Both the position numbers and the translations under genes were made by a program. DNA of 28,435 nucleotides from a virus. Positions 596-15,283 of the stretch are shown here, in pieces. Numbering within the stretch: the first letter of the stretch is position 1; each line of letters starts with the position of its first letter. Below the pieces are notes generated by a model. That model did not search any database and was not told where the DNA came from. It saw only the letters and a list, made by a program, of their open reading frames with translations. The DNA lies in the IMG/VR virus record IMGVR_UViG_3300001589_000027, positions 1-28,435 of that record; one strand, 5' to 3'.

Positions 596-617
596 GCAGT
601 GTCCTCAGCGACACTGC
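596..617 (+). repeat. Hairpin abutting hammerhead 1
   Basis: The arms GCAGTGTC (596-603) and GACACTGC (610-617) enclose a 6-nt loop that holds the family's TCAG. The base next to the loop is C (604) where other copies have G, so one C-C mismatch lies below the tetraloop. It starts 7 nt after the stop of the first gene and ends directly against stem III of the ribozyme (618). It is one copy of the dispersed GTGTCG-N4-CGACAC family. Confidence 0.85.
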
Positions 618-665
618 CCGTCCACAGGTGAAGCCTGTGCTGATGAGCTCAAAAGAGCGAAACGG
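618..665 (+). ncRNA. Type III hammerhead ribozyme 1
   Basis: All core elements are present in order. Stem III 5' strand CCG (618-620) is followed by U621-C622 (a GUC site, cleavage expected after C622). Stem I is CACAGG/CCTGTG (623-628/634-639) with loop TGAAG. The core CTGATGA (640-646) is followed by stem II GCTC/GAGC (647-650/655-658) with an AAAA loop. GAAA (659-662) and stem III CGG (663-665) complete it. The open ends lie in stem III, which defines type III. Stem III is only 3 bp plus the A-U pair, but the hairpin at 596-617 could stack on it. The amidoligase start codon lies 20 nt downstream. The Rfam type III hammerhead model should confirm it. Confidence 0.88.
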
Positions 666-685
666 AAACTTAAAACTTACACAAT

Positions 686-1696
686 ATGAGAAACGGAATT
701 CAATTTACTAACGACGGAGAAAGAGGACGAAACGTCATTCGCTCTTACCAATCCTATATCGAAAGGAGAAACGGTACCGGTAGACCGTCTTGCATCGACA
801 AGAGCCAAGGACACGCCGTAGATATCGCAGGTCTAAGATGCAGAGAAGCCAAAAGTGATTTGGTTACAGCTACAGGAAGCGCAAGATTTAAAATAGGTTT
901 TGAGATTGAGAAATCTTCATTTGCAGGTAGAACTGCGAGAGGAGCAAGAATGACTGAGTTACCTTTGGTTCAAACGTTCGAGGAGGATTCAAGTTGTGGC
1001 GTTGAAGCAGTTACGCACATCATTCCATTACTACCTAAATCTGCTTGGAGAAGCAAAGTGTTCAATATGTTTCACGAGGCTTCTCATATCATTGAGGAGG
1101 ACAGGAGCCCAAGCACTTACCGTTGTTCAATGCATACAACGATATCGGTAGCAGGTATTAATGGTACGCAGTTAATGAATGCACTACGTCCTTACTGCGG
1201 AATTCTTTATAGTGTTTTTAGACTCAGAATTGCGAATCACTACTGCAGAAGCAATGTCGAGATGAGAACTGATTCAAGTTATTGGAGAGGAGAAACCAAG
1301 TACGTACCTGCTAAGAATAGAGGTTACGGTATTGAGTTTAGATTACCTTCGAGAGTAAAATCAGTTAGAGCTATGCAGTTACGTTATGAGCTGTTTTATG
1401 AGCTCGTTAACTTCGGTCTAAATCACGCAGGTAAATCCTTTGGTTTGTTCCTCAGAAGAGTTAAGCCAATCATTGAGAGAATGTATGCAGGTGACGAGGG
1501 CAAAGCGGAAGAGGTTCTTACCTTGGCGAAATCCTTCCAAAAGTTTTTGAACACCGGACGTATCACCTCTGACATCAGAGAATACATTGAAGGTACTCAC
1601 GCCATCAATAGAAACGTCGACACTGAAGATTGGTCGCACAGGTATACAAGGACTCTCGCGAGAGAACGAAATACTACCTACAGGACTGAGATTTGA
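686..1696 (+). CDS. Predicted amidoligase (glutamine synthetase-like COOH-NH2 ligase)
   Basis: This 336-aa protein probably joins a carboxylate to an amine with ATP, as glutamate-cysteine ligases and Amidoligase_2 proteins do. Visible motifs fit that fold: GFEIE (71-75) for the first metal-binding strand, an EDSSCGVEAVT stretch (about 100-110) matching the family's D-G/S-S...EivT signature, CSMHTTIS (147-154) at the usual H-x-H/T position, an Arg-rich helix after it, and IEFRLPSR (216-223) for a substrate or phosphate-contacting strand. The first 65 residues are polar and may be a separate extension. The substrate is unknown. The gene lies directly behind hammerhead 1 and ends just before hammerhead 2, so its mRNA could be cut on both sides. 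The GATase II/GGCT fusion at 4543 is a likely pathway partner. The call is by motif only. Confidence 0.65.
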   Translation: MRNGIQFTNDGERGRNVIRSYQSYIERRNGTGRPSCIDKSQGHAVDIAGLRCREAKSDLVTATGSARFKIGFEIEKSSFAGRTARGARMTELPLVQTFEEDSSCGVEAVTHIIPLLPKSAWRSKVFNMFHEASHIIEEDRSPSTYRCSMHTTISVAGINGTQLMNALRPYCGILYSVFRLRIANHYCRSNVEMRTDSSYWRGETKYVPAKNRGYGIEFRLPSRVKSVRAMQLRYELFYELVNFGLNHAGKSFGLFLRRVKPIIERMYAGDEGKAEEVLTLAKSFQKFLNTGRITSDIREYIEGTHAINRNVDTEDWSHRYTRTLARERNTTYRTEI

Positions 1697-1704
1697 CAGC
1701 CCTC

Positions 1705-1726
1705 AGAGAGCTCTAAGGAGCTCTCT
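1705..1726 (+). repeat. Hairpin abutting hammerhead 2 (different sequence)
   Basis: Perfect 9-bp arms AGAGAGCTC (1705-1713) and GAGCTCTCT (1718-1726) enclose the tetraloop TAAG. The sequence is unrelated to the GTGTCG family but has the same size and place, directly before stem III of the ribozyme. The last T (1726) can pair either in this hairpin or with A1778 in stem III. Confidence 0.88.
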
Positions 1727-1778
1727 CCTGTCCGCAGGTGTGTGCCTGCGCTGATGAGTCCAAGAGGACGAAACAGGA
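1726..1778 (+). ncRNA. Type III hammerhead ribozyme 2
   Basis: Stem III is TCCTG/CAGGA (1726-1730/1774-1778, the longest of the five). The site U1731-C1732 gives cleavage after C1732. Stem I is CGCAGG/CCTGCG (1733-1738/1745-1750) with loop TGTGTG. The core CTGATGA (1751-1757) is followed by stem II GTCC/GGAC (1758-1761/1766-1769) with loop AAGA, then GAAA (1770-1773). It has the canonical G-C pair at 10.1-11.1, so it is one of the two copies most likely to be active. The start codon of the next gene is 17-18 nt downstream. Confidence 0.9.
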
Positions 1779-1795
1779 ACTTTAAAACTTATAAG

Positions 1796-2245
1796 ATGAA
1801 CAAGATTGCAAAAGGATTTAAGATGAATGAATTAGAGATGACAGCGTTTGACATTATCAACGAGGCATCTGAAATGGAAACAACATTTATAACGACAGCA
1901 GATGTCAATGTTGAGGAGATATTGAAAGGCGTTTCAAATCTAAACCTTGTTACCGCGTTTGACATGATAGGGGACTTCCTTGACTCAAACAATATACCTT
2001 ACTTTTTAGTACAGCAGTTGGTTGAGGAAAGAATGGGTACTACTGAGATAGACGGAGAGATATTCAAGCTTGTTAGAACCAAGGTAAGGGTAATTCCTCA
2101 GTGCTTAGACATACATCAAGATATTGATATGACACAGCAGGAAATCAACAGCACAATCAAGACCATAATATCTCTCAAGGGAGATGACAGCGACCTGCAG
2201 GATACTTGCTTTGATGATGCAGGAATCTTGACATACAATTCCTAA
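1796..2245 (+). CDS. Unknown acidic protein, 149 aa
   Basis: No family is recognised. The protein is acidic and mostly helical by composition, with no clear membrane segment or catalytic motif; it has two Cys (about residues 101 and 138). I chose the ATG at 1796 because an upstream in-frame start at 1742 would lie inside stem I of hammerhead 2, and because 1796 follows the same A/T-rich leader (AAAACTTATAAG) seen before the gene at 2345. A further in-frame ATG at 1823 is an alternative. The TAA at 2243-2245 is the first codon of a 34-nt block repeated at 3034-3067, so the spacer module begins at the stop codon. Confidence 0.75.
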   Translation: MNKIAKGFKMNELEMTAFDIINEASEMETTFITTADVNVEEILKGVSNLNLVTAFDMIGDFLDSNNIPYFLVQQLVEERMGTTEIDGEIFKLVRTKVRVIPQCLDIHQDIDMTQQEINSTIKTIISLKGDDSDLQDTCFDDAGILTYNS

Positions 2246-2252
2246 CAGGAAT

Positions 2253-2274
2253 GCAGTGTCGTCAGCGACACTGC
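2253..2274 (+). repeat. Hairpin abutting hammerhead 3
   Basis: Perfect 9-bp arms GCAGTGTCG (2253-2261) and CGACACTGC (2266-2274) enclose a TCAG tetraloop. There is no gap to stem III of the ribozyme at 2275. It is a full-length copy of the dispersed hairpin family. Confidence 0.9.
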
Positions 2275-2323
2275 CCGTATGCAGGTGTGTACCTGCACTG
2301 AAGATTCGGAAACGATGAAACGG
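2275..2323 (+). ncRNA. Type III hammerhead ribozyme 3
   Basis: Stem III is CCG/CGG (2275-2277/2321-2323). The site U2278-A2279 is a GUA triplet with cleavage after A2279. Stem I is TGCAGG/CCTGCA (2280-2285/2292-2297) with loop TGTGTA. The core is CTGAAGA (2298-2304), the allowed CUGANGA form with N=A. Stem II is TTCG/CGAT with a GAAA loop (2305-2316), then GAAA (2317-2320). The first stem II position is U-U (2305/2316) instead of the usual G-C, so activity is less certain than for copies 1 and 2. The start codon at 2345 is 21 nt downstream. Confidence 0.8.
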
Positions 2324-2344
2324 AAATTTAATAAAACTTATAAG

Positions 2345-2539
2345 ATGAAAAACTTAAAATTTGATTTACTATGTATGTTCGCGGTGGTGTGCGGAATGTT
2401 TTCAATCCTGTCAATAGAGCAGGCGATTCACCTTGAGTGCAATGGTTTGTTTATCATTGCAGGTATGACATCCTTGGTTATGTGGATGTGCATTTACCAA
2501 GCATCATTAGAGAGTAGAAACCAAAATAAAAACCAATAG
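2345..2539 (+). CDS. Small two-helix membrane protein, 64 aa
   Basis: This protein is predicted to sit in the membrane. A short basic N-terminus leads into a hydrophobic stretch (about residues 8-26), and a second hydrophobic stretch follows (about residues 34-54), ending in a polar, Asn/Gln/Lys-rich tail. It has several Cys and Met in the hydrophobic parts. The ATG at 2345 is chosen because an earlier in-frame ATG at 2279 lies at the cleavage site of hammerhead 3. The gene ends in AAC-CAA-TAG and is followed after 2 nt by the next ATG, a junction that recurs at 6803/6806 and 7060/7063. Function unknown; a holin or host-membrane modifier is possible but unsupported. Confidence 0.7.
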   Translation: MKNLKFDLLCMFAVVCGMFSILSIEQAIHLECNGLFIIAGMTSLVMWMCIYQASLESRNQNKNQ

Positions 2540-2541
2540 AT

Positions 2542-3036
2542 ATGAAAACTGAAAATAACATAATGTACGTAACGATTAATGAGAACTACACAGCGACGGT
2601 CAGAGACCTGCAGGCTTTTCGTAAACACCTGTACAGGGAGACGGAGACGTTTGATAAGACGTTCGGAGAGATAACATATACCAAGAGCACAACGAGTTTA
2701 AGATTCGTTAGGGCTGTTGAACGTATGATTAGAGACAAGCAACAATCAATGCTTCCTCGTGTACTCCAAATGATAGGATGTACAGGTACGCTGTATGCTA
2801 ATCAAGGGCAGAGAGATTACACGATAGTATCGGCGTGTGAGGAGACGAACACAATGTTGTTAGAGTATGAAATGCCGAACGGTACAACTGCGCTAAGGGT
2901 ATTCTCTAACAACGTAAAATATTACAACAACTTCAGCTATAGACAGCTTAACAAATCAAATAGATTCAAGAAGCATCTGAACGAGGACCTGTTGGTAAAC
3001 AATCCTCAGAGCGGACAGGCTTGGGTGTGGTCGTAA
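2542..3036 (+). CDS. Unknown protein, 164 aa
   Basis: No family is recognised. It is a soluble, basic protein with a helical, Arg-rich first half (about residues 20-75), then a likely beta-rich part (about 85-125), then a polar C-terminus. It starts 2 nt after the membrane-protein gene, so the two are probably translated together as one unit behind hammerhead 3. The phrase M-P-N-G-T (about residues 112-116) also occurs in the protein at 3419, which may be chance. The TAA stop at 3034 starts the repeated 34-nt block leading into hammerhead 4. Confidence 0.78.
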   Translation: MKTENNIMYVTINENYTATVRDLQAFRKHLYRETETFDKTFGEITYTKSTTSLRFVRAVERMIRDKQQSMLPRVLQMIGCTGTLYANQGQRDYTIVSACEETNTMLLEYEMPNGTTALRVFSNNVKYYNNFSYRQLNKSNRFKKHLNEDLLVNNPQSGQAWVWS

Positions 3037-3043
3037 CAGGAAT

Positions 3044-3065
3044 GCAGTGTCGTCAGCGACACTGC
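3044..3065 (+). repeat. Hairpin preceding hammerhead 4
   Basis: Perfect arms GCAGTGTCG (3044-3052) and CGACACTGC (3057-3065) enclose a TCAG loop, identical to the copy at 2253-2274. One unpaired C (3066) separates it from stem III. Confidence 0.9.
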
Positions 3066-3066
3066 C

Positions 3067-3115
3067 CCGTATCAACGTGTGTGCGTTGACTGATGATTCC
3101 AAAAGGATGAAACGG
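3067..3115 (+). ncRNA. Type III hammerhead ribozyme 4
   Basis: Stem III is CCG/CGG (3067-3069/3113-3115). The site U3070-A3071 gives cleavage after A3071. Stem I is TCAACG/CGTTGA (3072-3077/3084-3089) with loop TGTGTG. The core CTGATGA (3090-3096) is followed by stem II TTCC/GGAT (3097-3100/3105-3108) with an AAAA loop, then GAAA (3109-3112). Stem I differs from the other copies on both strands while still pairing, which is compensatory change. U-U replaces G-C at the base of stem II. The start codon at 3145 is 29 nt downstream. Confidence 0.82.
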
Positions 3116-3144
3116 ATTTACTAACTTTCATAAATTCAAACACT

Positions 3145-3249
3145 ATGAAAACATTAACAAAGATTGAGCTAATGCTCATCGCAATTACACCTGTCGCTGT
3201 AGGATTCGGCGGGTTCACGATTGCTCAAGTAATCTTGGGCACGTGGTAG
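3145..3249 (+). CDS. Tiny single-span membrane protein, 34 aa
   Basis: A 34-residue frame starts with ATG behind the leader AAACACT, the same context as the starts at 3854 and 4087. After a short Lys-containing start, residues about 8-31 are almost wholly hydrophobic with Gly and Pro, which suggests one membrane span. It ends in TAG at 3247-3249, inside the first codons of the next frame (GTG at 3243). Function unknown. It is the first gene behind hammerhead 4. Confidence 0.55.
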   Translation: MKTLTKIELMLIAITPVAVGFGGFTIAQVILGTW

Positions 3250-3419
3250 AGAAATGGTTCTACTACCACATAACCTGCACGCGCAGGTTGGGAGATTGGA
3301 GAGGGATATCCCTCTCCGCTCACTCCAAGTGGGAAGCCATAGACAAGGCGTTTACAATTCTCCGGCAGGAACATCCTACACTGCAGAGAAAAGAACTAAC
3401 AATAAAAAAACTAAAGTAA
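3243..3419 (+). CDS. Unknown basic protein, 58 aa, GTG start
   Basis: There is no ATG in this frame, but it reads as natural protein. GTG at 3243 overlaps the stop of the 34-aa gene by 7 nt, and the TAA at 3417-3419 overlaps the next ATG (TAATG), so it fits a translationally coupled chain. The product starts V-E-K-W-F-Y-Y, is rich in Arg, Lys and Trp, and ends in an amphipathic, Lys-rich helix-like stretch (about residues 29-58). It fills what would otherwise be a 169-nt gap. An ATG frame at 3254 in another register covers part of the same DNA but is less convincing upstream of 3419. No function can be assigned. Confidence 0.5.
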   Translation: MVEKWFYYHITCTRRLGDWRGISLSAHSKWEAIDKAFTILRQEHPTLQRKELTIKKLK

Positions 3420-3739
3420 TGACAACTAATAAAGAGAAAATAGAGAGCCTCAACAAGGCAATGAATGTACTGAACGAACTATACTATTTCACTAACGACA
3501 ACGAAACAATGTTGAAACAAAAGATGGCATCGGCTTACGACACGCTAAAGTATATGAAAAGCTTAATGACAAAGAAAGAACAGGAGACCAATCCCATACA
3601 GGCGCAGATGAAATTCAGAATGCCGAACGGAACAGACAAGTACGTGACCAAGACATTCAATGATAAGAAACATATGCGCGCGTATATAGACAAAGTATGT
3701 AAGCAGGAAGACTGCGACTTGGATGAGGTGTGGTACTAA
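3419..3739 (+). CDS. Unknown protein, 106 aa
   Basis: No family is recognised. The first half (about residues 1-55) is a helical, Lys/Glu/Met-rich segment, possibly coiled coil; the second half looks like a small alpha/beta unit ending in D-E-V-W-Y, with two Cys (about 94 and 99). I chose ATG 3419 because it couples by TAATG to the 58-aa frame and follows an A-rich tract; the same frame is open further up to 3254. A hairpin of the GTGTCG family follows the stop by 7 nt, so the unit started at hammerhead 4 probably ends here. Confidence 0.75.
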   Translation: MTTNKEKIESLNKAMNVLNELYYFTNDNETMLKQKMASAYDTLKYMKSLMTKKEQETNPIQAQMKFRMPNGTDKYVTKTFNDKKHMRAYIDKVCKQEDCDLDEVWY

Positions 3740-3746
3740 TGCAGGC

Positions 3747-3764
3747 AGTGTCGTCAGCGACACT
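3747..3764 (+). repeat. GTGTCG-family hairpin at unit end
   Basis: The 7-bp arms AGTGTCG (3747-3753) and CGACACT (3758-3764) enclose a TCAG loop. No hammerhead core follows. A 19-bp palindrome begins 5 nt later. It may mark the 3' end of the preceding message; there is no long T tract. Confidence 0.85.
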
Positions 3765-3768
3765 CCTT

Positions 3769-3787
3769 ATTTAGAATGATTCTAAAT
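3769..3787. promoter_or_regulatory. Perfect 19-bp palindrome, operator candidate
   Basis: ATTTAGAAT-G-ATTCTAAAT is a perfect inverted repeat around a central G. It lies 13 nt upstream of the TTG element of the promoter candidate at 3800-3830, which is a reasonable place for a dimeric regulator. It could instead fold as a 7-bp RNA hairpin. The regulator is not identifiable. Confidence 0.5.
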
Positions 3788-3799
3788 TAGCATTCAGAT

Positions 3800-3830
3800 T
3801 TGGTAGTGTCGTATTTATTTCGTATACTTG
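3800..3830 (+). promoter_or_regulatory. Bacteroidetes-type promoter candidate
   Basis: TTG (3800-3802), a 20-nt spacer and TATACTTG (3823-3830) match the Bacteroidetes -33/-7 pattern TTG-N17-23-TAnnTTTG with one mismatch. A start of transcription just after 3835 would leave a short leader before the ATG at 3854. Confidence 0.5.
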
Positions 3831-3853
3831 TATTAATCATTAACAAAAACACT

Positions 3854-4075
3854 ATGACCAAAGTAAACGAGGTAAAAAAAGTAGGAGACAAAATCACATT
3901 CAACTATGGTGGTCTCAAGGGTACTAAAGAGCACACGATTAAGAAGGTGGTCGTAATAGAAGACCGTAACAGGTATGAATATTGGATATCTAAAACCCAT
4001 CATATTCAAGCTCCTATAAGGGAAGAGGTTGAAAGCAAAAGAGGTTTTAAGTACACGAGTATAATTGGATTTTAA
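3854..4075 (+). CDS. Unknown small protein, 73 aa
   Basis: No family is recognised. It is a basic, beta-rich small protein (K-V-G-D-K-I-T-F, then K-K-V-V-V-I-E-D), perhaps an SH3- or OB-like barrel, but this is only an impression from strand spacing. ATG 3854 is preferred over an earlier in-frame GTG or TTG because it has the leader AACAAAAACACT and lies a sensible distance behind the promoter candidate at 3800-3830. It is the first gene of a short operon with 4087 and 4307. Confidence 0.7.
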   Translation: MTKVNEVKKVGDKITFNYGGLKGTKEHTIKKVVVIEDRNRYEYWISKTHHIQAPIREEVESKRGFKYTSIIGF

Positions 4076-4086
4076 AAACAAACACT

Positions 4087-4305
4087 ATGAAAAAGGTAAG
4101 AGCATTCAGAGACATTACTAATCACGAGGCTGTCACTTATTTAGATGACCGAGATGTAGATTACGAATTGCCTGCAAGAGACAGGGCTTCTATACTCATC
4201 GGACTCAAAGAAGGATACAAGGATAGATGGGGTAATGGAATCATATCTGCAATCTCCAAGAGAGATGCAATCCAAAAGGTAAACGAAATAACTAAACTGA
4301 AGTAA
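4087..4305 (+). CDS. Unknown small protein, 72 aa
   Basis: No family is recognised. A mixed charged protein whose C-terminal half (I-S-A-I-S-K-R-D-A-I-Q-K) looks helical. It starts 11 nt after the preceding stop with the context AAACACTATG, repeated from 3145 and 3854, and is followed after 1 nt by the next ATG. It is likely co-transcribed with its neighbours. Confidence 0.7.
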   Translation: MKKVRAFRDITNHEAVTYLDDRDVDYELPARDRASILIGLKEGYKDRWGNGIISAISKRDAIQKVNEITKLK

Positions 4306-4306
4306 G

Positions 4307-4462
4307 ATGAAAGACTTGAAAGACGTACAGCACGTGAACGAAATCAGAACTGCTACAATGGAACAGGTTCAGCATTGGTTGACTCAATGCAGACAGGTTC
4401 AGCAGATGACAACGAGAGAGCTGTGGGATAGAGAGTCTGACTTAAAAGATAAACAAAGGTAG
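4307..4462 (+). CDS. Unknown small polar protein, 51 aa
   Basis: A short frame starts 1 nt after the stop of the 72-aa gene (TAAGATG). The product is almost entirely helical by composition, rich in Gln, Glu, Lys and Asp with two Trp, and could form a short coiled coil. It ends with TAG at 4460-4462. The tight spacing and plausible composition support coding; nothing indicates a function. Confidence 0.6.
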   Translation: MKDLKDVQHVNEIRTATMEQVQHWLTQCRQVQQMTTRELWDRESDLKDKQR

Positions 4463-4464
4463 AC

Positions 4465-4491
4465 AAGCGGTCACCTACACAAGCACCGCTT
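4465..4491 (+). repeat. Inverted repeat after 51-aa gene
   Basis: AAGCGGT (4465-4471) and ACCGCTT (4485-4491) are perfectly complementary around a 13-nt loop. It starts just after the stop at 4462 and could stabilise or end the upstream message. No T tract follows. Confidence 0.55.
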
Positions 4492-4504
4492 ACAAACAGG
4501 GTTC

Positions 4505-4522
4505 GGTGTCGCCAACGACACT
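4505..4522 (+). repeat. GTGTCG-family hairpin with CCAA loop
   Basis: GTGTCG (4506-4511) and CGACAC (4516-4521) enclose CCAA, extended by a G-T pair at 4505/4522. The CCAA loop is the version found on the coding strand inside the giant minus-strand gene. No hammerhead core follows; the next gene starts at 4543. Confidence 0.8.
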
Positions 4523-4542
4523 GCCCACAAAACTAAATAATT

Positions 4543-5652
4543 ATGTGTGTAATTATCGTAAAACAAAAAGACAAACCACTATCGCGTGAGGTGGCTAAAA
4601 CAAGCGCAAGAAAGAATCCTCACGGTCTCGGTATCGTATGGCTCGACACGTTCGAGTTAACACGTCACGAGTCTAAGGAGTACGGTGTACTGACATCAGA
4701 TGAGAACAAGCACCGACCATTCATAGCGCACTTCAGATACGCTACGGTTGGAAAGATATCCAAAGAGAACACGCACCCATTTGTATGTGGAGCGCAGACG
4801 GATGAACTTCTGATGATGAACGGAACGGTTGCAGGTTACGGTAACAAGAAGATGACTGACTCGCAGGCATTGGCTAACGAGCTTGGTACTATACCAAGAG
4901 AGGAATGGAAAGAGCATCTGAAAGTAAAGGATGTAAACGCGCCTAACTACTGCAGGTTCGTATCAATCAACACTCGCACTCGTTCGTTCCAAATCTACAA
5001 CAGGGAATTGTTCACGTATCACGACGGCGTATGGTTCTCAAAGGCAAACGTCTTGGAGACAAACGTTATCGCAGTGTACGGTACACTCAAGAAAGGGTAC
5101 AGCAACTACTACCATTACCTTAGAGGCTCTAAGTATGTCGGTGGTGGTACAACTAAGAACAAGTATCCTCTTATTGAAGAAGGACTTCCGTATGTGGTTA
5201 ACAAGCCCGGCATCGGACATCACATTGAGGTTGATGTGTTCAAGGTTGCAGACCAAACCTTTGCAGACATTGATATGCTTGAGGGACATCCGAGGTGGTA
5301 CAAGCGTGAGCAGATTACGGTAATGGTCAAGGGTAAAGAGATTGTATGTTGGTTGTACTTCAATCCAACGGTGAAGCTAAAGCCTCATAACCGATTATTA
5401 AAGACATACAAGCAAGAGTATAAACCTTACAAGGGGTATTCGTTTGACAATACCAAAACGTACAGGACTCCTGTAACAAAGCCTGCGGTCACAAAGATTG
5501 CAGACCTGTTCGACGACTGCAACTTAGACGACACAGGCACAGGGTTCAATGCGCTCAAGGAATGCAGTGACTCAAAGTGTAACACGAACAACTTTGCGTT
5601 CGACGGTTGGGGCAACTACTACTGCGAGACCTGTGGAGAATGGTACACGTAG
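4543..5652 (+). CDS. Glutamine amidotransferase II - GGCT - zinc-ribbon fusion
   Basis: Three parts are visible in 369 aa. Residues about 1-170 resemble class II (Ntn) glutamine amidotransferase: the nucleophile Cys2 follows the initiator Met, then N-P-H-G-L-G-I, H-F-R-Y-A-T and M-M-N-G-T-V motifs. This domain frees ammonia from glutamine. Residues about 175-290 match gamma-glutamylcyclotransferase/AIG2: V-Y-G-T-L-K-K-G (178-185) and D-M-L-E-G-H with the probable catalytic Glu247; these enzymes release gamma-glutamyl groups as 5-oxoproline. A C-terminal zinc-ribbon-like segment has C341, C346, C361 and C364. Links between such domains and amidoligases are known from comparative genomics, so the amidoligase at 686 is a likely partner. 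A hairpin precedes the gene and hammerhead 5 follows it. Confidence 0.8.
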   Translation: MCVIIVKQKDKPLSREVAKTSARKNPHGLGIVWLDTFELTRHESKEYGVLTSDENKHRPFIAHFRYATVGKISKENTHPFVCGAQTDELLMMNGTVAGYGNKKMTDSQALANELGTIPREEWKEHLKVKDVNAPNYCRFVSINTRTRSFQIYNRELFTYHDGVWFSKANVLETNVIAVYGTLKKGYSNYYHYLRGSKYVGGGTTKNKYPLIEEGLPYVVNKPGIGHHIEVDVFKVADQTFADIDMLEGHPRWYKREQITVMVKGKEIVCWLYFNPTVKLKPHNRLLKTYKQEYKPYKGYSFDNTKTYRTPVTKPAVTKIADLFDDCNLDDTGTGFNALKECSDSKCNTNNFAFDGWGNYYCETCGEWYT

Positions 5653-5687
5653 TCAGATTTTAGTAAGTTTTAGTCTGACTCAAACGG

Positions 5688-5709
5688 GGAGTGTCGTCAG
5701 CGACACTCC
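5688..5709 (+). repeat. Hairpin preceding hammerhead 5
   Basis: Perfect 9-bp arms GGAGTGTCG (5688-5696) and CGACACTCC (5701-5709) enclose TCAG. The outer pairs differ from the copies at 2253 and 3044 (GG/CC instead of GC/GC) but still pair. One T (5710) separates it from stem III. Confidence 0.9.
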
Positions 5710-5710
5710 T

Positions 5711-5761
5711 TCCGTATCGGGATGTGCATCCCGGCTGATGATTCGAAAACGATGAAACGGA
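5711..5761 (+). ncRNA. Type III hammerhead ribozyme 5
   Basis: Stem III is TCCG/CGGA (5711-5714/5758-5761). The site U5715-A5716 gives cleavage after A5716. Stem I is TCGGGA/TCCCGG (5717-5722/5729-5734, with one U-G pair) and loop TGTGCA. The core CTGATGA (5735-5741) is followed by stem II TTCG/CGAT (5742-5745/5750-5753) with an AAAA loop, then GAAA (5754-5757). U-U replaces G-C at the base of stem II. The ATG at 5784 is 22 nt downstream. Confidence 0.84.
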
Positions 5762-5783
5762 AACTTTATAAAACTTTAATACA

Positions 5784-6533
5784 ATGGCACAGAAAAAAAC
5801 AGGTGCGCTCGACAGAGCAGTAAGGTTCTTCAATGAACTATCAAGCAGAACACTCACGAGAACTGAGATGGCAAAATTAGCAAAAGAGATTGGGGTTCGC
5901 AACGGGCTCGAACGATTTGCTTTAGAAAGAAAATGGTGCAAGGCTTTGCCGGGAATACAAAGTCCAAACCAAAAGGGAAGGGCATCGGGCAGGTTAAAAT
6001 TCATTGACCTATCCAACATCAGCCCGCTCCACATCCGACTACTTCTTGATGACGCGAATGCGTATGTGATGCAAAGCATTAGTAAGAGAGAGAAGGTAGA
6101 AAAGAAGACAGCAGAAACTTCTGATGTGGTTGTTACGGCAGAGTTTGAATGGACAGCAGAGACCACGAAGATGTTTGCGAAAGTTTATTCGGGCAACTTC
6201 AGAAGCCTGCCGTCACGATTCAACTACAAGACATACCACGGGCTGTCAATGGACGAGAAGGTCAAGCAGTTTATGTCTGACTTCGTCCTTCCCGAAACAA
6301 AACAAGTTACGGTATCGTTTGTAGAAACATACACTCGAACACACACCGAGACGATTGATATTCCCGTTGACGTTGTAGATATAAAAACATATCTTATAGA
6401 TAAAAGCACGCATACGTTTAAGAAAATGCCCACGTTAGAAGGCACGCCATTCACTGACACGTCAGAGCTGACACGTACACCGGGGACTACTATCAAATGG
6501 GACTTCGGTACTGATAAAAAAGATACACTTTAA
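5784..6533 (+). CDS. Unknown protein, 249 aa
   Basis: No family is recognised. The N-terminal part (about residues 1-60) is basic and helical, with a stretch T-R-T-E-M-A-K-L-A-K-E-I-G-V-R-N that could be a helix-turn-helix, so DNA binding is possible but unproven. The middle (about 60-170) is mixed, and the C-terminal third is rich in Thr and Val in alternating patterns, suggesting beta strands. The ATG follows the leader AAAACTTTAATACA behind hammerhead 5. A long reverse-strand frame across the gene's first half is a shadow. An 11-bp hairpin of the dispersed family follows the stop. Confidence 0.78.
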   Translation: MAQKKTGALDRAVRFFNELSSRTLTRTEMAKLAKEIGVRNGLERFALERKWCKALPGIQSPNQKGRASGRLKFIDLSNISPLHIRLLLDDANAYVMQSISKREKVEKKTAETSDVVVTAEFEWTAETTKMFAKVYSGNFRSLPSRFNYKTYHGLSMDEKVKQFMSDFVLPETKQVTVSFVETYTRTHTETIDIPVDVVDIKTYLIDKSTHTFKKMPTLEGTPFTDTSELTRTPGTTIKWDFGTDKKDTL

Positions 6534-6546
6534 TATTACAAATCAG

Positions 6547-6572
6547 AACGGGTGTCGTCAGCGACACTCGTT
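6547..6572 (+). repeat. Longest GTGTCG-family hairpin
   Basis: An 11-bp stem (one G-T pair) runs from AACGGGTGTCG (6547-6557) to CGACACTCGTT (6562-6572) around TCAG. It lies between the genes ending at 6533 and starting at 6588. Read as protein from its GTG it would be V-S-S-A-T, the same frame as the in-gene copies, but that extension is probably not translated. Confidence 0.88.
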
Positions 6573-6587
6573 CACAAATCAAATCAA

Positions 6588-6803
6588 ATGTTTAGGACAA
6601 TTATTTTTATATGCCTGTTGATGAAAGGACAGGTCGAAAGAATGGGAGAACAGACCAACGACGGAAGAAAACTTTACACGTTGACTATTGATACCCCGGA
6701 CACGCTGTTCAAGTATGAGCACGTGTACAAAGAAGAGATTTACCAATACATAAAGACAGGTAAGTTTGAGTACAACGATTTTTTAACAGACGAAAACCAA
6801 TAG
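6588..6803 (+). CDS. Unknown small protein, 71 aa
   Basis: No family is recognised. The N-terminus from the ATG at 6588 is hydrophobic (F-R-T-I-I-F-I-C-L-L), so it may carry a short membrane anchor; the rest is polar and acidic with several Tyr. Other in-frame starts are the GTG at 6552 inside the hairpin and ATGs at 6621 and 6642, which would remove the hydrophobic part. I prefer 6588 because of the AAATCAAATCAA leader. It ends in AAC-CAA-TAG with the next ATG 2 nt later. Confidence 0.6.
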   Translation: MFRTIIFICLLMKGQVERMGEQTNDGRKLYTLTIDTPDTLFKYEHVYKEEIYQYIKTGKFEYNDFLTDENQ

Positions 6804-6805
6804 AG

Positions 6806-7060
6806 ATGAGTACAACAAAGATATATTCAGTATGGGAAAGTGATTGGAACGGCAGAGACTATCCAAGTTATTACCCAAACAAATCAGAGGCAATGAAACA
6901 CTACAACGAATCCAAAGAGGACAAGCCACAATATGTTTCGATAAGGGAGTGCATAGTAACAGGTTGGAAGACTGATGAGATGGAAATCTTAGAAGAGGAC
7001 AACATAGAATCTTACTATGAGGAAGACGAAGAAGAATCACTAACAATTAAAAACCAATAG
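6806..7060 (+). CDS. Unknown acidic protein, 84 aa
   Basis: No family is recognised. The N-terminal half is rich in aromatic residues (Tyr and Trp) and looks like a compact beta-rich unit; the C-terminus from about residue 60 is strongly acidic (many Glu and Asp) before a short basic tail ending K-N-Q. Small acidic phage proteins sometimes mimic DNA, but nothing here proves that. The gene sits between two copies of the AAAACCAATAGAGATG junction (6793-6808 and 7050-7065), so it could have been gained as a cassette. Confidence 0.72.
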   Translation: MSTTKIYSVWESDWNGRDYPSYYPNKSEAMKHYNESKEDKPQYVSIRECIVTGWKTDEMEILEEDNIESYYEEDEEESLTIKNQ

Positions 7061-7062
7061 AG

Positions 7063-7158
7063 ATGGGTAACGCAACTAACATAGCAGATTGGATAGAGCA
7101 TTGGGATAGTTTTGACTATGGGCTGTACATAAAAATACTACAGGCAAAGAATAAATAG
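7063..7158 (+). CDS. Tiny protein, 31 aa
   Basis: A short frame starts 2 nt after the previous stop in the repeated junction AAAAACCAATAGAGATG. The peptide is aromatic and acidic in the middle (W-I-E-H-W-D-S-F-D-Y) with a basic end, compatible with an amphipathic helix. Its TAG stop (7156-7158) lies in the left arm of the hairpin at 7155-7176. Coding is suggested by the conserved junction; function is unknown. Confidence 0.5.
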   Translation: MGNATNIADWIEHWDSFDYGLYIKILQAKNK

Positions 7159-7176
7159 TGTCGTCAAGGACACTAT
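7155..7176 (+). repeat. Hairpin containing a stop codon
   Basis: An 8-bp stem, ATAGTGTC (7155-7162) with GACACTAT (7169-7176), surrounds a 6-nt loop GTCAAG. The TAG of the 31-aa gene is inside the left arm. It is a variant of the GTGTCG family with an open loop, and a likely 3' end for the operon before the promoter at 7196. Confidence 0.75.
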
Positions 7177-7195
7177 AAATTTATTACAAAAAAGA

Positions 7196-7227
7196 TTAGG
7201 AATTGTACAATTCTTTTCTTATATTTG
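7196..7227 (+). promoter_or_regulatory. Promoter candidate with internal palindrome
   Basis: TATATTTG (7220-7227) matches the Bacteroidetes -7 element TAnnTTTG exactly. The upstream element is weak: TTA at 7196-7198 with a 21-nt spacer. A perfect 14-bp palindrome, GAATTGTACAATTC (7200-7213), lies between them, where a bound repressor would block RNA polymerase. Transcription starting near 7233 would give a 15-nt leader to the ATG at 7248. Confidence 0.55.
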
Positions 7228-7247
7228 TTTTATTCAAACACAATTCA

Positions 7248-7502
7248 ATGATACAACTAATCAAAATAAATGGTGATGTCACTGACAATTTTACAGCAGA
7301 CACACTAAAAGAAAAACAAGACGCGGTAGGTGGATACATAGAGGTGGTCGCCACACGCAAGGGCAAGGTGCTAATCGTAAACGAAGAGGGACTTATAAAA
7401 GGTCTGAAGAAGAACAAGAAGGCTTCAGACATTGCAGGTTTCGATATCGTTGGTGATGTCATATGCTTAGATGAAAAAGACTACCGAAAATTTTTAAACT
7501 AA
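7248..7502 (+). CDS. DUF3846-like protein, 84 aa
   Basis: The sequence fits the DUF3846 family of small phage and plasmid proteins of unknown role: an N-terminal I-Q-L-I-K-I-N strand, then K-Q-D-A-V-G-G-Y-I-E-V-V (about residues 23-34), then V-N-E-E-G-L-I-K-G-L-K-K-N (about 44-56), then a final I-V-G-D-V-I strand. I start it at ATG 7248; the in-frame ATG at 7203 lies within the promoter region. It is probably the first gene transcribed from the promoter at 7196-7227, leading the block of recombination genes. Confidence 0.7.
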   Translation: MIQLIKINGDVTDNFTADTLKEKQDAVGGYIEVVATRKGKVLIVNEEGLIKGLKKNKKASDIAGFDIVGDVICLDEKDYRKFLN

Positions 7503-7513
7503 AATCAAATAAA

Positions 7514-7864
7514 ATGAAATCAATTTATGAAAAACAAATCCTCATAGAAAAAATGAGGAAGAACCCGCACAAGGGTTTGATTCAAAGACTGCAAAGCTAT
7601 ATGGAAAAGGATGAGCCTATTTCTAAGCTTATCTTTTTTGACTCTTCGGTTTTGATGTCAGTGTCTGACTTCGTTAAGTCTTACACAGGAAAGATTCACT
7701 CAGAATGTCAAACGGTTATGACGTACATAGGAGACAACTTCCTTCAGTCTTTACACAATGGAGATTGGATTGCACACATAGGCGACAAGGAGGTTAGGTA
7801 TACTAATATTAAAAATGCCGAAGAAGACTTGTGGGAATATTTTAAAACAAATAAACTGAACTAA
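7514..7864 (+). CDS. Unknown protein, 116 aa
   Basis: No family is recognised. The first 40 residues are helical and basic; the rest is mixed, with a hydrophobic segment around residues 38-50 too short and broken for a membrane span, and an acidic helical C-terminus. It lies 11 nt after the DUF3846-like gene (leader AAAATCAAATAAA) and 1 nt before the DnaA-domain-like gene, so it belongs to the same operon. Confidence 0.75.
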   Translation: MKSIYEKQILIEKMRKNPHKGLIQRLQSYMEKDEPISKLIFFDSSVLMSVSDFVKSYTGKIHSECQTVMTYIGDNFLQSLHNGDWIAHIGDKEVRYTNIKNAEEDLWEYFKTNKLN

Positions 7865-7865
7865 T

Positions 7866-8156
7866 ATGCTGAAAGAAAAGATATTCAATAAGTATGTTAC
7901 GGATGTATGTAACAAGCTTGATGTTCCAAAAGAGGACATCTTTACCAACACCAAGAAGCGCAGTGTTGTAGATGCCCGGCAACTAATCTACTATCTATGT
8001 CACATACGCCCGATGCGTAGCTCATACATAATAGACTATATGTCTCGCAACGGTTACGCACCACCGCATTCTACCATAAACTATGGTATAAATAAAATAC
8101 TAACCAAGATTAACACCGACCAAGACTATGTTGAACTAATAGAAAAGCTGAAGTAA
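7866..8156 (+). CDS. DnaA domain IV-like DNA-binding protein, 96 aa
   Basis: It resembles the C-terminal DNA-box-binding domain of DnaA without the ATPase. S-V-V-D-A-R (33-38) corresponds to the start of the long helix, and P-H-S-T-I-N-Y-G-I (67-75) to the DnaA signature D-H-S-T-V, where DnaA reads the 9-mer box. The spacing between them (about 30 residues) fits. It probably binds DNA, perhaps phage or host origin sequences, to steer replication. The stop overlaps the next start (TAATG). A second protein of this kind is at 15246. Confidence 0.7.
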   Translation: MLKEKIFNKYVTDVCNKLDVPKEDIFTNTKKRSVVDARQLIYYLCHIRPMRSSYIIDYMSRNGYAPPHSTINYGINKILTKINTDQDYVELIEKLK

Positions 8157-8551
8157 TGTATACTCTACAAGAAATATGGGAGCAGGCGAAGAAAGATACA
8201 TTCGCATCTAACCTTGACGGAGGAGGATACCAAGCACGTATAGTATATGGATGCAGGATTGTTCGCGATGATGCAACAGGAGAGATAGAAGTATACAATA
8301 CAGGCAAGGGTGGAGACTACTACAAGAGGATAGAAAACATAGATGTATTCTTGAATAACGGTTGGAGACAAGGTTGCTATGAGGTTTCATTGGACAACTA
8401 CAGAGACAGGCTTGACAGGATAGAGAAGATGATTAGGAATGAGGTGAACGGAAAACGAAATCCAAAACAGATTCAGTCTTACAAAACTCAAAGAGAGAGC
8501 GTGCTAAATAAGTACGCAGAATTAATGGTTAAACTAAATAAAATAAAGTAA
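8156..8551 (+). CDS. Unknown protein, 131 aa
   Basis: No family is recognised. The N-terminal 75 residues look like a small alpha/beta domain with Gly-rich turns (D-G-G-G-Y, G-K-G-G-D-Y-Y). The C-terminal 50 residues are strongly charged and helical, probably a coiled coil (R-L-D-R-I-E-K-M-I-R). Translation is coupled to the DnaA-like gene by TAATG, and the annealing-protein gene follows after 1 nt. A role in recombination or replication is only suggested by position. Confidence 0.75.
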   Translation: MYTLQEIWEQAKKDTFASNLDGGGYQARIVYGCRIVRDDATGEIEVYNTGKGGDYYKRIENIDVFLNNGWRQGCYEVSLDNYRDRLDRIEKMIRNEVNGKRNPKQIQSYKTQRESVLNKYAELMVKLNKIK

Positions 8552-8552
8552 A

Positions 8553-9185
8553 ATGGCAAACGCTAAAAAGAAATCAGTGTTCGAGACACTGAACGCAATC
8601 AACGTCAACGGACGTACAGAAACAAAGAATGGACTAACGTATTTGTCTTGGGCTTGGGCTTGGGCAACAGCAAAGGAACACTATCCGGAAGCGACGTATA
8701 CAATCTATGAGAATGCAGAAGGTGTGTTCTATCACAGAGACCACAACTCAGCTTGGGTAAAGACAGGAGTGTCTATCGAGGGCATCGAGCATATCGAGTA
8801 CCTACCTGTAATGGACTTCAGAAACAACTCAATAGAGCTTGTAAAGATTAAGTCTACTGATGTTAACAAAGCTATACAACGTAGCTTAACCAAGGCTCTT
8901 GCTCGTCACGGACTTGGGCTGTATGTGTATGCAGGAGAGGACCTTCCATCAGTAGAGAAGGAGCAACCTAAGAAAGCTCCTGTAAAGAAAGCACCTGCTA
9001 AGTCAGAGAAAGTGTCGTCAGCGACACCGAAGATGCCCGGTATACCAAAGGGTAAATGGGATGACTTCGTGCTGTATGTTACAGCAAACAAGAAGATGGG
9101 CTTCAATCAGCTCGTAGCAAACATTGAGGCTAAGTACACACTGACTGAGGCTCAGCTCAAGGAAATCAAAAATATTACAGGATAA
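8553..9185 (+). CDS. Sak3-like single-strand annealing protein (DUF1071)
   Basis: It probably coats single-stranded DNA and anneals complementary strands during phage recombination. The hallmark Y-L-S-W-A-W-A-W is at residues 30-37, followed by the typical Y-P-E-A-T-Y strand and an R-S-L-T-K-A-L-A-R-H-G-L-G helix-turn (about 109-121), as in DUF1071/Sak3. A Lys/Pro/Ala-rich linker (about 134-165) precedes a small C-terminal domain. Within that linker the hairpin element at 9012-9027 encodes V154-S-S-A-T-P159. The stop overlaps the start of the exonuclease gene (TAATG), the usual annealase-exonuclease pairing. 210 aa is near the usual length for the family. Confidence 0.82.
   Translation: MANAKKKSVFETLNAINVNGRTETKNGLTYLSWAWAWATAKEHYPEATYTIYENAEGVFYHRDHNSAWVKTGVSIEGIEHIEYLPVMDFRNNSIELVKIKSTDVNKAIQRSLTKALARHGLGLYVYAGEDLPSVEKEQPKKAPVKKAPAKSEKVSSATPKMPGIPKGKWDDFVLYVTANKKMGFNQLVANIEAKYTLTEAQLKEIKNITG
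9012..9027 (+). repeat. In-frame copy of GTGTCG hairpin in annealing-protein gene
   Basis: GTGTCG-TCAG-CGACAC lies in the linker of the Sak3-like gene and is read V-S-S-A-T-(P). The 16 nt are identical to the intergenic copies, and the flanks do not pair further. Confidence 0.85.
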
Positions 9186-9940
9186 TGAGCGACGTAATAG
9201 AACTACTCCGTGATGACCAAGAGTATTACGGAGGGGTAGGTAAGCAGTACCTATCCAACTCAGACATAGGAACACTGCTAAAGAGCCCCGAAGAGTTTGG
9301 GTTTTCACGTCCCGACAATAAGAACTTTGCAGAGGGTAGATACTTTCATCAACTGATTCTTGAACCGGAGAAGGCTAAGGAGATACACACTGTGGACTTC
9401 GCAAGCAGGAATACAAAGGGTTACAAAGAAGCCTGTCTTGATATGAACCTTGAGGTTCTGCTACTGAAGAAAGAAGCGGACCACATTGAGAACCTTGTAT
9501 CAAGAATGACAGGCAACCTTGATTTCTTCGAACTCATACACGCAAAGGGAAACATCTTTGAGGTCCCTAATATTATGACGTACTCCTCGGTGATTGATGA
9601 CAACCATTCAGTTACTCAGTGGAAGGGTAAGGCAGACATCGTTGGAAAAGATTATGTCATAGACCTAAAGACCACGTCAAATTTAGATGACTTCAAGTGG
9701 AACGCACGCAAGTACAACTACGATAGTCAAGCATTCATATACCAAAGACTATTCGGAAAACCGATGATGTTCTTAGTCATTGAGAAGCAGACAGGTAGAA
9801 TGGGAATGTTCACAGGTAACGATGACTTCTATCAGAGGGGACAGGACAAGATGCACAGAGCAATAGGTGTGTACCAAAAATTCTTTTCTGAAGAAAAAAT
9901 TCTTGACATAAATAATTACTACGTCAAGGACGAGATATAA
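9185..9940 (+). CDS. RecE-like PD-(D/E)XK exonuclease
   Basis: It probably resects double-stranded ends to give the single strands used by the annealing protein. The catalytic strand region is visible: G-K-A-D151-I-V-G-K-D-Y-V-I-D160-L-K162-T-T, i.e. D...(D/E)-x-K, preceded by the helix G-R-Y-F-H-Q-L-I-L-E (about 51-60) that matches the conserved G...H/E motif of RecE/Cas4/YqaJ-type nucleases, and followed by Y-D-S-Q-A-F-I-Y-Q (the Q-x-x-x-Y helix). The start overlaps the annealase stop by 1 nt. 251 aa is normal for such a stand-alone domain (DUF3799/RecE C-terminal type). Confidence 0.82.
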   Translation: MSDVIELLRDDQEYYGGVGKQYLSNSDIGTLLKSPEEFGFSRPDNKNFAEGRYFHQLILEPEKAKEIHTVDFASRNTKGYKEACLDMNLEVLLLKKEADHIENLVSRMTGNLDFFELIHAKGNIFEVPNIMTYSSVIDDNHSVTQWKGKADIVGKDYVIDLKTTSNLDDFKWNARKYNYDSQAFIYQRLFGKPMMFLVIEKQTGRMGMFTGNDDFYQRGQDKMHRAIGVYQKFFSEEKILDINNYYVKDEI

Positions 9941-9964
9941 TTTTACAACTCACGCGCAGTGTAT

Positions 9965-10002
9965 CCGATGTATTGTGTGTGGGTTTATTTTTTAATCATC
10001 GG
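9965..10002 (+). repeat. Long-loop inverted repeat before SSB-like gene
   Basis: CCGATG (9965-9970) pairs with CATCGG (9997-10002); allowing one bulged T, three more pairs (ATT/AAT) extend it. The loop is U-rich. It ends 16 nt before the ATG at 10019 and could influence translation or stability. Evidence is limited to complementarity. Confidence 0.4.
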
Positions 10003-10018
10003 AATCAAATACTATAAT

Positions 10019-10336
10019 ATGGCAGAAGAAAAAATTTTTGCAGACGGATTTGTCTTTAAGAGACAAGAACAAAACACAGCCTTGATACCATTGGCTCCAA
10101 CAGAACCCAATCACTTTGTCTTAGGAAGACTAAGCGTGAAGACTGAGGATGCTGTAGCTTGGCTGAAAGCACACACCAACAAAGATGGTTGGGTGAGTAT
10201 CAACATCAAGCAATCAAAAGGAGGAAACTTCTATTGTGATTTGGATACGTGGGAACCAAAGAAACAGGAACCACGAGTTACTAACAATCCCGAACCCGCT
10301 GTAAAAGATTTACCGGCGGATGACCTACCGTTTTAA
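10019..10336 (+). CDS. Protein with SSB-like acidic tail, 105 aa
   Basis: The last residues are A-D-D-L-P-F, the acidic hydrophobic tip by which single-stranded DNA-binding proteins recruit other replication proteins. The body (about residues 1-80) is predicted beta-rich with aromatic residues and may be a small OB-like fold, but it does not match standard SSB motifs I can recognise; residues 83-100 are a Pro/Asn-rich linker as in SSBs. I start it at ATG 10019 (context ACTATAATATG), not at the in-frame 9959. The position between exonuclease and primase supports a ssDNA-binding role. It is followed by a strong terminator. Confidence 0.6.
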   Translation: MAEEKIFADGFVFKRQEQNTALIPLAPTEPNHFVLGRLSVKTEDAVAWLKAHTNKDGWVSINIKQSKGGNFYCDLDTWEPKKQEPRVTNNPEPAVKDLPADDLPF

Positions 10337-10362
10337 ATTGGTCAGCTTATTGGTTAGAAAGG

Positions 10363-10389
10363 GAGTGTCGTCAGCGACACTCTTTTTTT
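10363..10389 (+). terminator. Intrinsic terminator built on the GTGTCG hairpin
   Basis: Perfect 8-bp arms GAGTGTCG (10363-10370) and CGACACTC (10375-10382) enclose TCAG and are followed at once by seven T (10383-10389). It lies 27 nt after the stop of the SSB-like gene. It is the only copy of the family with a clear T tract, so it is a credible stop for the recombination operon. Confidence 0.85.
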
Positions 10390-10558
10390 CCCTTATAAGA
10401 TGTCAAGTTTTTCTCTGTATATCTTTTATTATTTCTTTTCTTTTATTATTATTATCCTTAATACAAGAGAAAAAAGTTAACATAGTATACAACTCACTGA
10501 TAATCAGAGAGAAACTTAACATAAAGTCAACATCAACTCAACACTAACACTAACAAAG
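10390..10558 (+). promoter_or_regulatory. AT-rich leader of the replication operon
   Basis: This 169-nt gap has no convincing gene. It holds a pyrimidine/AT tract (about 10403-10456), then A-rich sequence with short repeats of the type AACATA, CAACTCA and CACTAACACTAACA up to the ATG of the primase-helicase. A promoter must lie here if the terminator at 10363 works, but I see no good TTG/TAnnTTTG pair. An origin or initiator-binding region is possible because primase and DnaA-like genes are nearby; no clear DnaA box was found by eye. Confidence 0.35.
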
Positions 10559-12982: not shown

Positions 12983-12995
12983 AAACCAAAATAAA

Positions 12996-13220
12996 ATGAG
13001 TATAGATAATCAAATTTTTGCACACTACAGAGAACTAAAGAAGAAGGAGCAGGAAGCTATACAGCTTCTACTAAAGCTCGGCTATGTCATTGGAGACAGA
13101 GAGGCAATCAATGAAATGGTAATGCTTATCAAGAGCAGGAAGGTAGACCTCATTGAGGGTGTTGATTCAATTGTAAAAGAACTAAACCAAAACAAAGAAG
13201 ATGTGGAAAAGAATATTTAA
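12996..13220 (+). CDS. Unknown small helical protein, 74 aa
   Basis: No family is recognised. The composition is nearly all helical and charged (E-L-K-K-K-E-Q-E-A-I-Q-L-L), so a coiled-coil or small helical bundle is likely. It lies 13 nt after the primase-helicase gene (leader CAAAATAAA) and 42 nt before the SF2 helicase gene, so it is probably co-transcribed with them; it may be a helicase accessory protein, which is inference from position only. Confidence 0.7.
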   Translation: MSIDNQIFAHYRELKKKEQEAIQLLLKLGYVIGDREAINEMVMLIKSRKVDLIEGVDSIVKELNQNKEDVEKNI

Positions 13221-13262
13221 ACTAAATTTTTTTAGATATAAGTTTAGAATATACAGAAAAGT

Positions 13263-14756: not shown

Positions 14757-14952
14757 GGAGCAGGGCTATTATGTTATCAAGCTAATCAAGACAAACAAGA
14801 ACGGAATCCCCGACCTTATTGCTATCCCTCCCGACTCTGATGTTATATTCAGCGAGGTAAAAAAACCGGGAGGTAAACTGTCCAAATTGCAGGAGTACAG
14901 ACTAAAAGAGCTAAAGGATTATGGTAGAACAGAGATATACAAAGGTGGGTAA
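14713..14952 (+). CDS. VRR-NUC nuclease, 79 aa, GTG start
   Basis: It is a minimal VRR-NUC domain of the PD-(D/E)XK group: G-I-P-D34-L-I, then F-S-E48-V-K50, then K-L-S-K-L-Q60, with helices in the expected places. Stand-alone phage VRR-NUC proteins of this size are known, and some cut branched DNA such as Holliday junctions. The frame begins with GTG at 14713 inside the end of the helicase gene; no suitable ATG exists before the catalytic core. It overlaps the next gene's start (ATG 14921) by 32 nt. Helicase and nuclease may work on the same intermediates. Confidence 0.8.
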   Translation: MTEQQIQAKRIKELEEQGYYVIKLIKTNKNGIPDLIAIPPDSDVIFSEVKKPGGKLSKLQEYRLKELKDYGRTEIYKGG

Positions 14953-15283
14953 TATTCAGTACGACATTGACGATTGGTTCATCGAACAAATAAGAGAGAT
15001 ACCAATGGACTATGCGTTTGATATTGCGTCTCAGATTACAGAACAGGTAGATGAGCTGCCTGTAAAAAATGGTTGGACTCAGTATGTTGCAGGCGTATCT
15101 CACGCTCTTAAGGAACCGTTCTTCTTTAAGCTTGAATATTTAAACCAAGAGGAAGAGCTATGCTTATTCCTTGGAGTAGAGGAGGTAGATGTGGATACCT
15201 TCTTAGATTATATGAATGAAAATCAAACACTAAAATTTAATAAAGATGAAAAGAAATCCGAAAGTAGAGAGCCTGCTGATTAG
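14921..15283 (+). CDS. Unknown acidic protein, 120 aa
   Basis: No family is recognised. It is acidic, with a predicted mixed fold (W-F-I-E-Q-I-R-E-I helix, later F-F-F-K-L-E-Y-L and L-C-L-F-L-G strands) and a polar Lys/Glu tail. It overlaps the VRR-NUC gene by 32 nt at its start and the DnaA-like gene by 38 nt at its end; both neighbours are convincing, so the overlaps are real. Function unknown, presumably replication-associated by position. Confidence 0.72.
   Translation: MVEQRYTKVGNIQYDIDDWFIEQIREIPMDYAFDIASQITEQVDELPVKNGWTQYVAGVSHALKEPFFFKLEYLNQEEELCLFLGVEEVDVDTFLDYMNENQTLKFNKDEKKSESREPAD

Follow-up and report, generated by a model that had tools for sequence, protein, structure and literature searches.

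Five gene boundaries in the genome of a marine bacterial virus carry a composite unit in which a stem-loop stands directly before a type III hammerhead ribozyme. These units most likely split polycistronic mRNA into separate, end-protected messages of independent lifetime, with the cleavage itself predicted from the sequence. The DNA studied is a 28.4-kb window (28,435 nt) of the 47.5-kb record IMGVR_UViG_3300001589_000027. The elements, the conservation of their structure, their placement, their coupling to a hairpin, and their persistence at the same boundaries in related phages are all observed directly. The host is probably a member of the Bacteroidota, given that the primase-helicase has relatives in phages of Flavobacterium, Polaribacter, and Cellulophaga. 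The window also encodes a very large protein, in a single open frame of 3176 aa (17258-26788) that runs on the − strand, opposite to the array genes.

A mechanical descriptor of the type III hammerhead, comprising the core CUGANGA and GAAA, a U-H cleavage site, and three stems, matches the 28.4-kb window exactly five times, always on the + strand. No other match occurs on either strand, and none of 200 Markov-shuffled windows contains one. The five elements, numbered here in order as ribozymes 1 to 5, occupy positions 618-665, 1726-1778, 2275-2323, 3067-3115, and 5710-5762, with predicted cuts after nucleotides 622, 1732, 2279, 3071, and 5716, respectively. All five contain the complete core, with A15.1-U16.1 and an H17 nucleotide, around which three stems are arranged such that stems I and II are closed by loops and stem III is open. 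The UG-N-GU sequence of loop I and the NAAA sequence of loop II, sites relevant to a possible tertiary contact between the two loops that would speed cleavage, are strongly conserved. The N10.1-N11.1 pair at the foot of stem II, whose consensus is strong but not absolute, is G-C in ribozymes 1 and 2, which have C at the cleavage site (GUC), and U.U in ribozymes 3, 4, and 5, which have A (GUA). Minimum-energy folding of ribozyme 4 in its spacer yields a structure other than the hammerhead; the equivalent fold of ribozyme 5 forms stems I and II, with stem III absent.

An earlier note, made from the letters of this DNA, had proposed an Rfam search as a check on the elements. RF00008 (Hammerhead_3), which shares the core, the order of the stems, and the open stem III, matches ribozyme 2 (1725-1779, 47.5 bits), ribozyme 1 (615-668, 37.3 bits), and ribozyme 4 (3064-3118, 28.8 bits), but all five elements lie below its gathering score of 48.5, an operational threshold that does not define the class, and those at 2275 and 5710, two of the three with U.U, are absent from its matches at E ≤ 1. 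Rfam cut-offs miss elements like these, and all five would stay unannotated. A further Rfam match, to SCARNA8 at 5976-6105, falls below its own cut-off within a coding region and is attributed to chance. We also used an independent covariance model, R2, comprising 32 hammerheads of other phages, from which the window and its relatives (L004-L010) were left out to avoid circularity. With filters off, R2 recovers all five elements at 58-69 bits (E values from 3.7e-17 to 1.2e-20) and nothing else in the window, and a sister covariance model, applied to the full 47.5-kb record, yields the same five alone. The descriptor and R2 thus each return the five full-core hammerheads that the earlier note had located, and the cleavage positions it predicted agree with our sequence analysis. 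Five same-strand hammerheads flanking phage genes are concentrated in 5.2 kb, with none elsewhere in the 47.5-kb record.

As had been claimed, each ribozyme lies on the coding strand between a stop codon (at 588, 1696, 2245, 3036, and 5652) and the next ATG (at 686, 1796, 2345, 3145, and 5784), with 17-29 nt from ribozyme to ATG. The + strand genes that follow ribozymes 1 (686-1696, 336 aa), 2 (1796-2245, 149 aa), and 5 (5784-6533, 249 aa) match no Pfam or PHROG family, and a common function of the separated genes is therefore not seen. Ribozyme 3 precedes a 64-aa gene (2345-2539, + strand) and ribozyme 4 a small, 34-aa gene (3145-3249, + strand) that is conserved in the relatives L005-L007. 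The gene before ribozyme 5 (4543-5652, + strand) is glutamine amidotransferase-like and includes a gamma-glutamyl cyclotransferase (GGACT). Assignment of the whole array to one operon region is less secure. Ribozyme 5 may be separated from the other four by features near 3748-3833, namely a hairpin and a promoter-like sequence; this possible transcription-unit break makes a single operon uncertain for the fifth element. A search for the Bacteroidota promoter consensus gave one match, which is the chance level.

Placement was also assessed in a wider collection of 204 non-redundant hammerheads from phages and MAGs. This collection was seeded with stem II and loop II patterns, so its proportions are biased; many of its contigs are fragments, and the listed matches of two scans are lower bounds. 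An open-frame ATG lies no more than 60 nt downstream of 164 of the 197 non-redundant elements that have sufficient sequence (median 23 nt), compared with 21 of 203 in antisense and 32% of random places.

The stem-loop upstream of every ribozyme is a feature absent from the earlier note, as are the U.U/GUA subclass formed by the elements at 2275, 3067, and 5710 and the possible transcription-unit break described above. All five stem-loops are on the + strand. Stem-loop 1 (596-617; 8 bp with a 6-nt loop), stem-loop 2 (1706-1725), stem-loop 3 (2253-2274; 9 bp), and stem-loop 5 (5688-5709; 9 bp) abut stem III of their respective ribozymes, and stem-loop 4 (3044-3065; 9 bp) ends 1 nt before it. The gap is therefore 0-1 nt in all five units, with stems of 8-9 bp and a predicted post-cleavage tail of 5-7 nt. 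Four of the five hairpins have the core AGTGTC...GACACT in common. Stem-loop 2 is unrelated to them in sequence although L006 and L007 carry an AGTGTC-type hairpin at the boundary of ribozyme 2, which argues that structure, not sequence, is kept there. We considered whether the five hairpins are intrinsic terminators, and this is ruled out by the absence of a U tract, as stem III follows directly; a hairpin copy at 10365, which has no ribozyme, does have a T run.

Within the pattern-seeded collection, a strong hairpin is present no more than 8 nt from stem III in 49% of the 204 non-redundant elements. The corresponding figures are 3% for dinucleotide shuffles, 3% immediately downstream, and 8% in the stretch 100-140 nt upstream. 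By this strict test, roughly one collected element in two has no hairpin. The 100 hairpins all differ in sequence, frequently carry UUCG or GNRA loops, and show a distance to the cleavage site that peaks at 5-6 nt.

The same array recurs in IMG/VR relatives whose counterparts of the gene that follows ribozyme 1 are 50-58% identical. In L006 all five places are occupied, four of the elements preceding orthologous genes and the fifth lying behind the GGACT gene. L005 and L007 also keep elements at the same boundaries, four in L005, one of them with an inserted U, and three in L007, whose first boundary is cut off. Each of the more distantly related L008-L010 carries two or three. Across 18 elements from the window and its relatives, standard pairs occupy 95.6% of stem cells. 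Cells changed on both sides number 69; shuffles give 20.9, with none of 500 reaching 69, and slid structures give at most 7. Covariation is present in all three stems. These comparisons support the view that the hammerhead structure is under selection. Three to six same-strand elements occur in 16 of 20 records searched, a set chosen largely for loci already showing several. A search among cultured phages for an element resembling ribozyme 2 gave none.

In the model that we favor, each spacer presents a stable stem-loop, a type III hammerhead, a short A/U-rich leader, and a start codon, in that order. During synthesis of the polycistronic transcript, each hammerhead would fold and cleave the RNA 3′ to its GUC or GUA triplet. 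The message upstream of the cut would then end in the stem-loop followed by 5-7 nt and a 2′,3′-cyclic phosphate, an end that 3′ exonucleases presumably attack poorly. The message downstream of the cut would begin with a 5′-OH directly at the stem I hairpin, which should make it a poor substrate for 5′-end-dependent nucleases, and cleavage would release the leader before the ATG from stem III. The end chemistry assigned here is that of the known hammerhead reaction, and we infer both cleavage in vivo and the effect on message stability. Three of the five elements combine a U.U mismatch beside the core with a GUA site, so their activity may be low. The earlier proposal that a polycistronic RNA is split into messages with 5′-OH leaders thus gains support from a structure under selection and from placement at gene boundaries, with cutting itself still a prediction.

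The same cleavage might instead matter only to the gene downstream, whose translation would be insulated from upstream sequence by a uniform 5′ end of the RNA's own making; the hairpin would then guard stem III against upstream RNA. In favor of this reading, the distance between ribozyme and start codon is fixed, a hairpin abutting stem III fits coaxial stacking or insulation, and stem III is slightly longer in hairpin-less elements of the collection (mean 5.66 versus 5.22, p = 0.016). The synthetic ribozyme insulator RiboJ is also joined to a hairpin, one located after the ribozyme, where it makes the ribosome site accessible; in the units described here, by contrast, the hairpin precedes the ribozyme and would stay on the upstream message. 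RiboJ, too, is a self-cleaving ribozyme placed before a gene that changes message level, raising the transcript about twofold in E. coli, and it provides a precedent both for the favored model and for insulation (PMC6206723). However, ribozyme 5 stays behind the GGACT gene in relatives even where the downstream gene is different, and the hairpin occurs alone in other spacers, where there is no ribozyme to insulate. We consider it rather unlikely that insulation is the sole role, and retain the splitting of polycistronic mRNA by composite units as the preferred reading.

Solitary stem-loops of the same family are found in two spacers without a ribozyme, at 4504-4526 and 6546-6573 (both + strand). 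These hairpins, near 4506 and 6552, remain alone at those boundaries in some relatives, and L009 and L010 have only the hairpin at the boundary of ribozyme 1. No hammerhead was found in MW202828.1 (L136), a freshwater relative in which hairpins are present, indicating that the ribozymes are not essential. In this record, GTGTCGTTAACGACAC, a perfect 16-bp palindrome, occurs in 14 copies within 11.4 kb (3746-15170), many of them at gene boundaries or in spacers, and nowhere else. These patterns are most simply explained if the hairpin came first as an intercistronic element and the hammerhead was added later between it and the start codon; alternatively, the hammerhead was lost from the hairpin-only boundaries.

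The palindrome GTGTC-N6-GACAC has 17 copies in this genome and 13-19 per genome across the group, and the reversed control has none. Copies inside coding sequence were observed in the window (9012, 14431, 23461, and 23557), L005 (14581), L008 (12150), and L009 (14613), and in relatives one intragenic copy recurs within the gene for the single-strand annealing protein. Given this frequency and the intragenic copies, the hairpin core may serve another purpose. A phage protein could bind it in DNA or RNA, as a palindrome dispersed like repressor or stoperator sites, with hammerheads next to it only because both occupy spacers. Such a role, which the 14 identical, perfect palindromes of MW202828 would suit, appears distinctly improbable as an account of the units, since stem-loop 2 is unrelated in sequence where relatives have the palindrome, and since in other phages the 100 different hairpin sequences that abut stem III carry RNA-type tetraloops.

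The association between the stem II foot and the cleavage site extends beyond the window. When the collection is grouped at 60% flank identity, the U.U class has A17 in 80 cases, U17 in 10, and C17 in 3, whereas the G-C class has C17 in 79, A17 in 16, and U17 in 11. The 11 clusters of the A.A class have C17 in 8, U17 in 3, and A17 in none. Within 32 loci that hold both of the first two classes, C17 is found in 34 of 44 G-C elements versus 1 of 46 U.U elements, and a within-locus permutation test gave no association as strong in 20,000 trials. When U.U is combined with C17 in an IMG/VR scan requiring a stem I of 18 nt, 7 contigs are listed, compared with at least 119 for U.U as such. A Watson-Crick rule linking 10.1 to H17 fits G/C and U/A but fails for the A.A class, and we therefore do not claim a 10.1-H17 base pair. 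The coupling is a correlation between sequence positions rather than a mechanism, and shared descent of modules may contribute to it. A further core variant has a U inserted after A9 (CUGAUGAU), followed mostly by a 5-bp stem II starting with G-C. It is represented by 42 distinct elements (L005:9012-9063, L008:5316-5367, and 40 more in IMG/VR), 41 of which have C at the cleavage site.

The U.U pair also bears on whether the elements, above all the three of the U.U/GUA type, have decayed and no longer cut. This is very unlikely: although U.U lies at the most conserved variable pair, Rfam scores are low, and ribozyme 4 has a competing fold, the stems covary in U.U elements too. The U.U class is moreover frequent in phages, with 122 members among the 281 viral elements of a pattern-biased set, and, unlike decayed elements, has an H17 preference of its own. 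Perreault et al. 2011 describe U10.1-U11.1 as a natural variant and the best tolerated mispair, and they list the hammerhead of PaP3, nearly identical to ribozyme 5, among active core variants (PMC3088659). Over 47 nt, ribozyme 5 is 89-92% identical to the element of the Pseudomonas phages PaP3 and PaP4 (Bruynoghevirus), with 89% to the PaP3 record, and both are type III with GUA and U10.1.U11.1. The PaP3 core variation is probably this U.U pair, on the basis of the near-identical PaP4 sequence. Unlike the window, PaP3 and PaP4 infect a different host phylum and have a single aligned element with no strong abutting hairpin. At a distance of 1.5 kb from its known element, PaP4 (L135) also contains a weak second hammerhead-like match (1707-1758, 21.8 bits). 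In principle, the ends left by a hammerhead can be ligated. That paired cuts free gene-length RNAs for ligation into circles, or that the elements are remnants of mobile or circular RNAs, is nevertheless extremely improbable despite the use of hammerheads by circular RNAs elsewhere (PMC6155905), as the flanking genes differ with no surrounding repeat, and a search by Perreault et al. for splicing or circularization of tandem elements gave no such products (PMC3088659).

The earlier note had described hammerheads as known singly in bacterial and phage genomes, a view not borne out by the prophage clusters of Perreault et al. 2011, who also proposed processing into shorter mRNAs (PMC3088659). 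The array as such is therefore not new, and the claim that it is unusual was only partly right. As in the window, genes or short gene blocks of those phages are flanked by several hammerheads. Cleavage was shown in vitro for three arrangements and in E. coli for one, and in three clusters all tandem elements of one long RNA cleaved (PMC3088659). Here, in contrast, a hairpin precedes each of five serial elements, and related phages conserve them at the individual boundaries; the main text of the 2011 paper does not mention an upstream hairpin (PMC3088659). New relative to known clusters, as far as the literature was searched, are the composite unit, the two core subclasses, and the hairpin-only state at some orthologous boundaries. 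The hairpin-plus-hammerhead unit, the boundary-by-boundary conservation, and the coupling of H17 to stem II are undescribed in that literature, which took in few subscription journals and preprints.

Prokaryote contigs with the hammerhead pattern are mostly Patescibacteria (CPR) MAGs (L273, L286, L293, L302, L304, and others of L260-L307). Some of their elements are near cellular-type genes, such as those for ABC transporter binding proteins and NAD-dependent DNA ligase, frequently with an upstream hairpin and a GTTCTTTGAA-like leader, and these look chromosomal rather than phage-borne.

A 2017 review describes the role of prokaryotic hammerheads as an open question of the field and points to a persistent phage link (PMC6155905). 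More speculatively, GUC/G-C and GUA/U.U elements may differ in cleavage strength, such that boundaries would be cut to different extents. We tentatively suggest, as a possibility short of likely, that phage hammerheads form functional subclasses in which H17 is tied to the stem II foot (G-C with C17; U.U with A17 or U17; A.A with U17 or C17; and U after A9 plus G-C with C17). If kept at each array position, these subclasses could provide graded, boundary-specific cutting, and hairpin-hammerhead units could be a general intercistronic processing device across unrelated phages. The coupling between H17 and 10.1/11.1, if real, would add an unforeseen constraint to a ribozyme that is among the best studied. 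The composite unit offers a concrete, testable model of these elements, in which both new RNA ends would lie at a hairpin or a few nucleotides from one.
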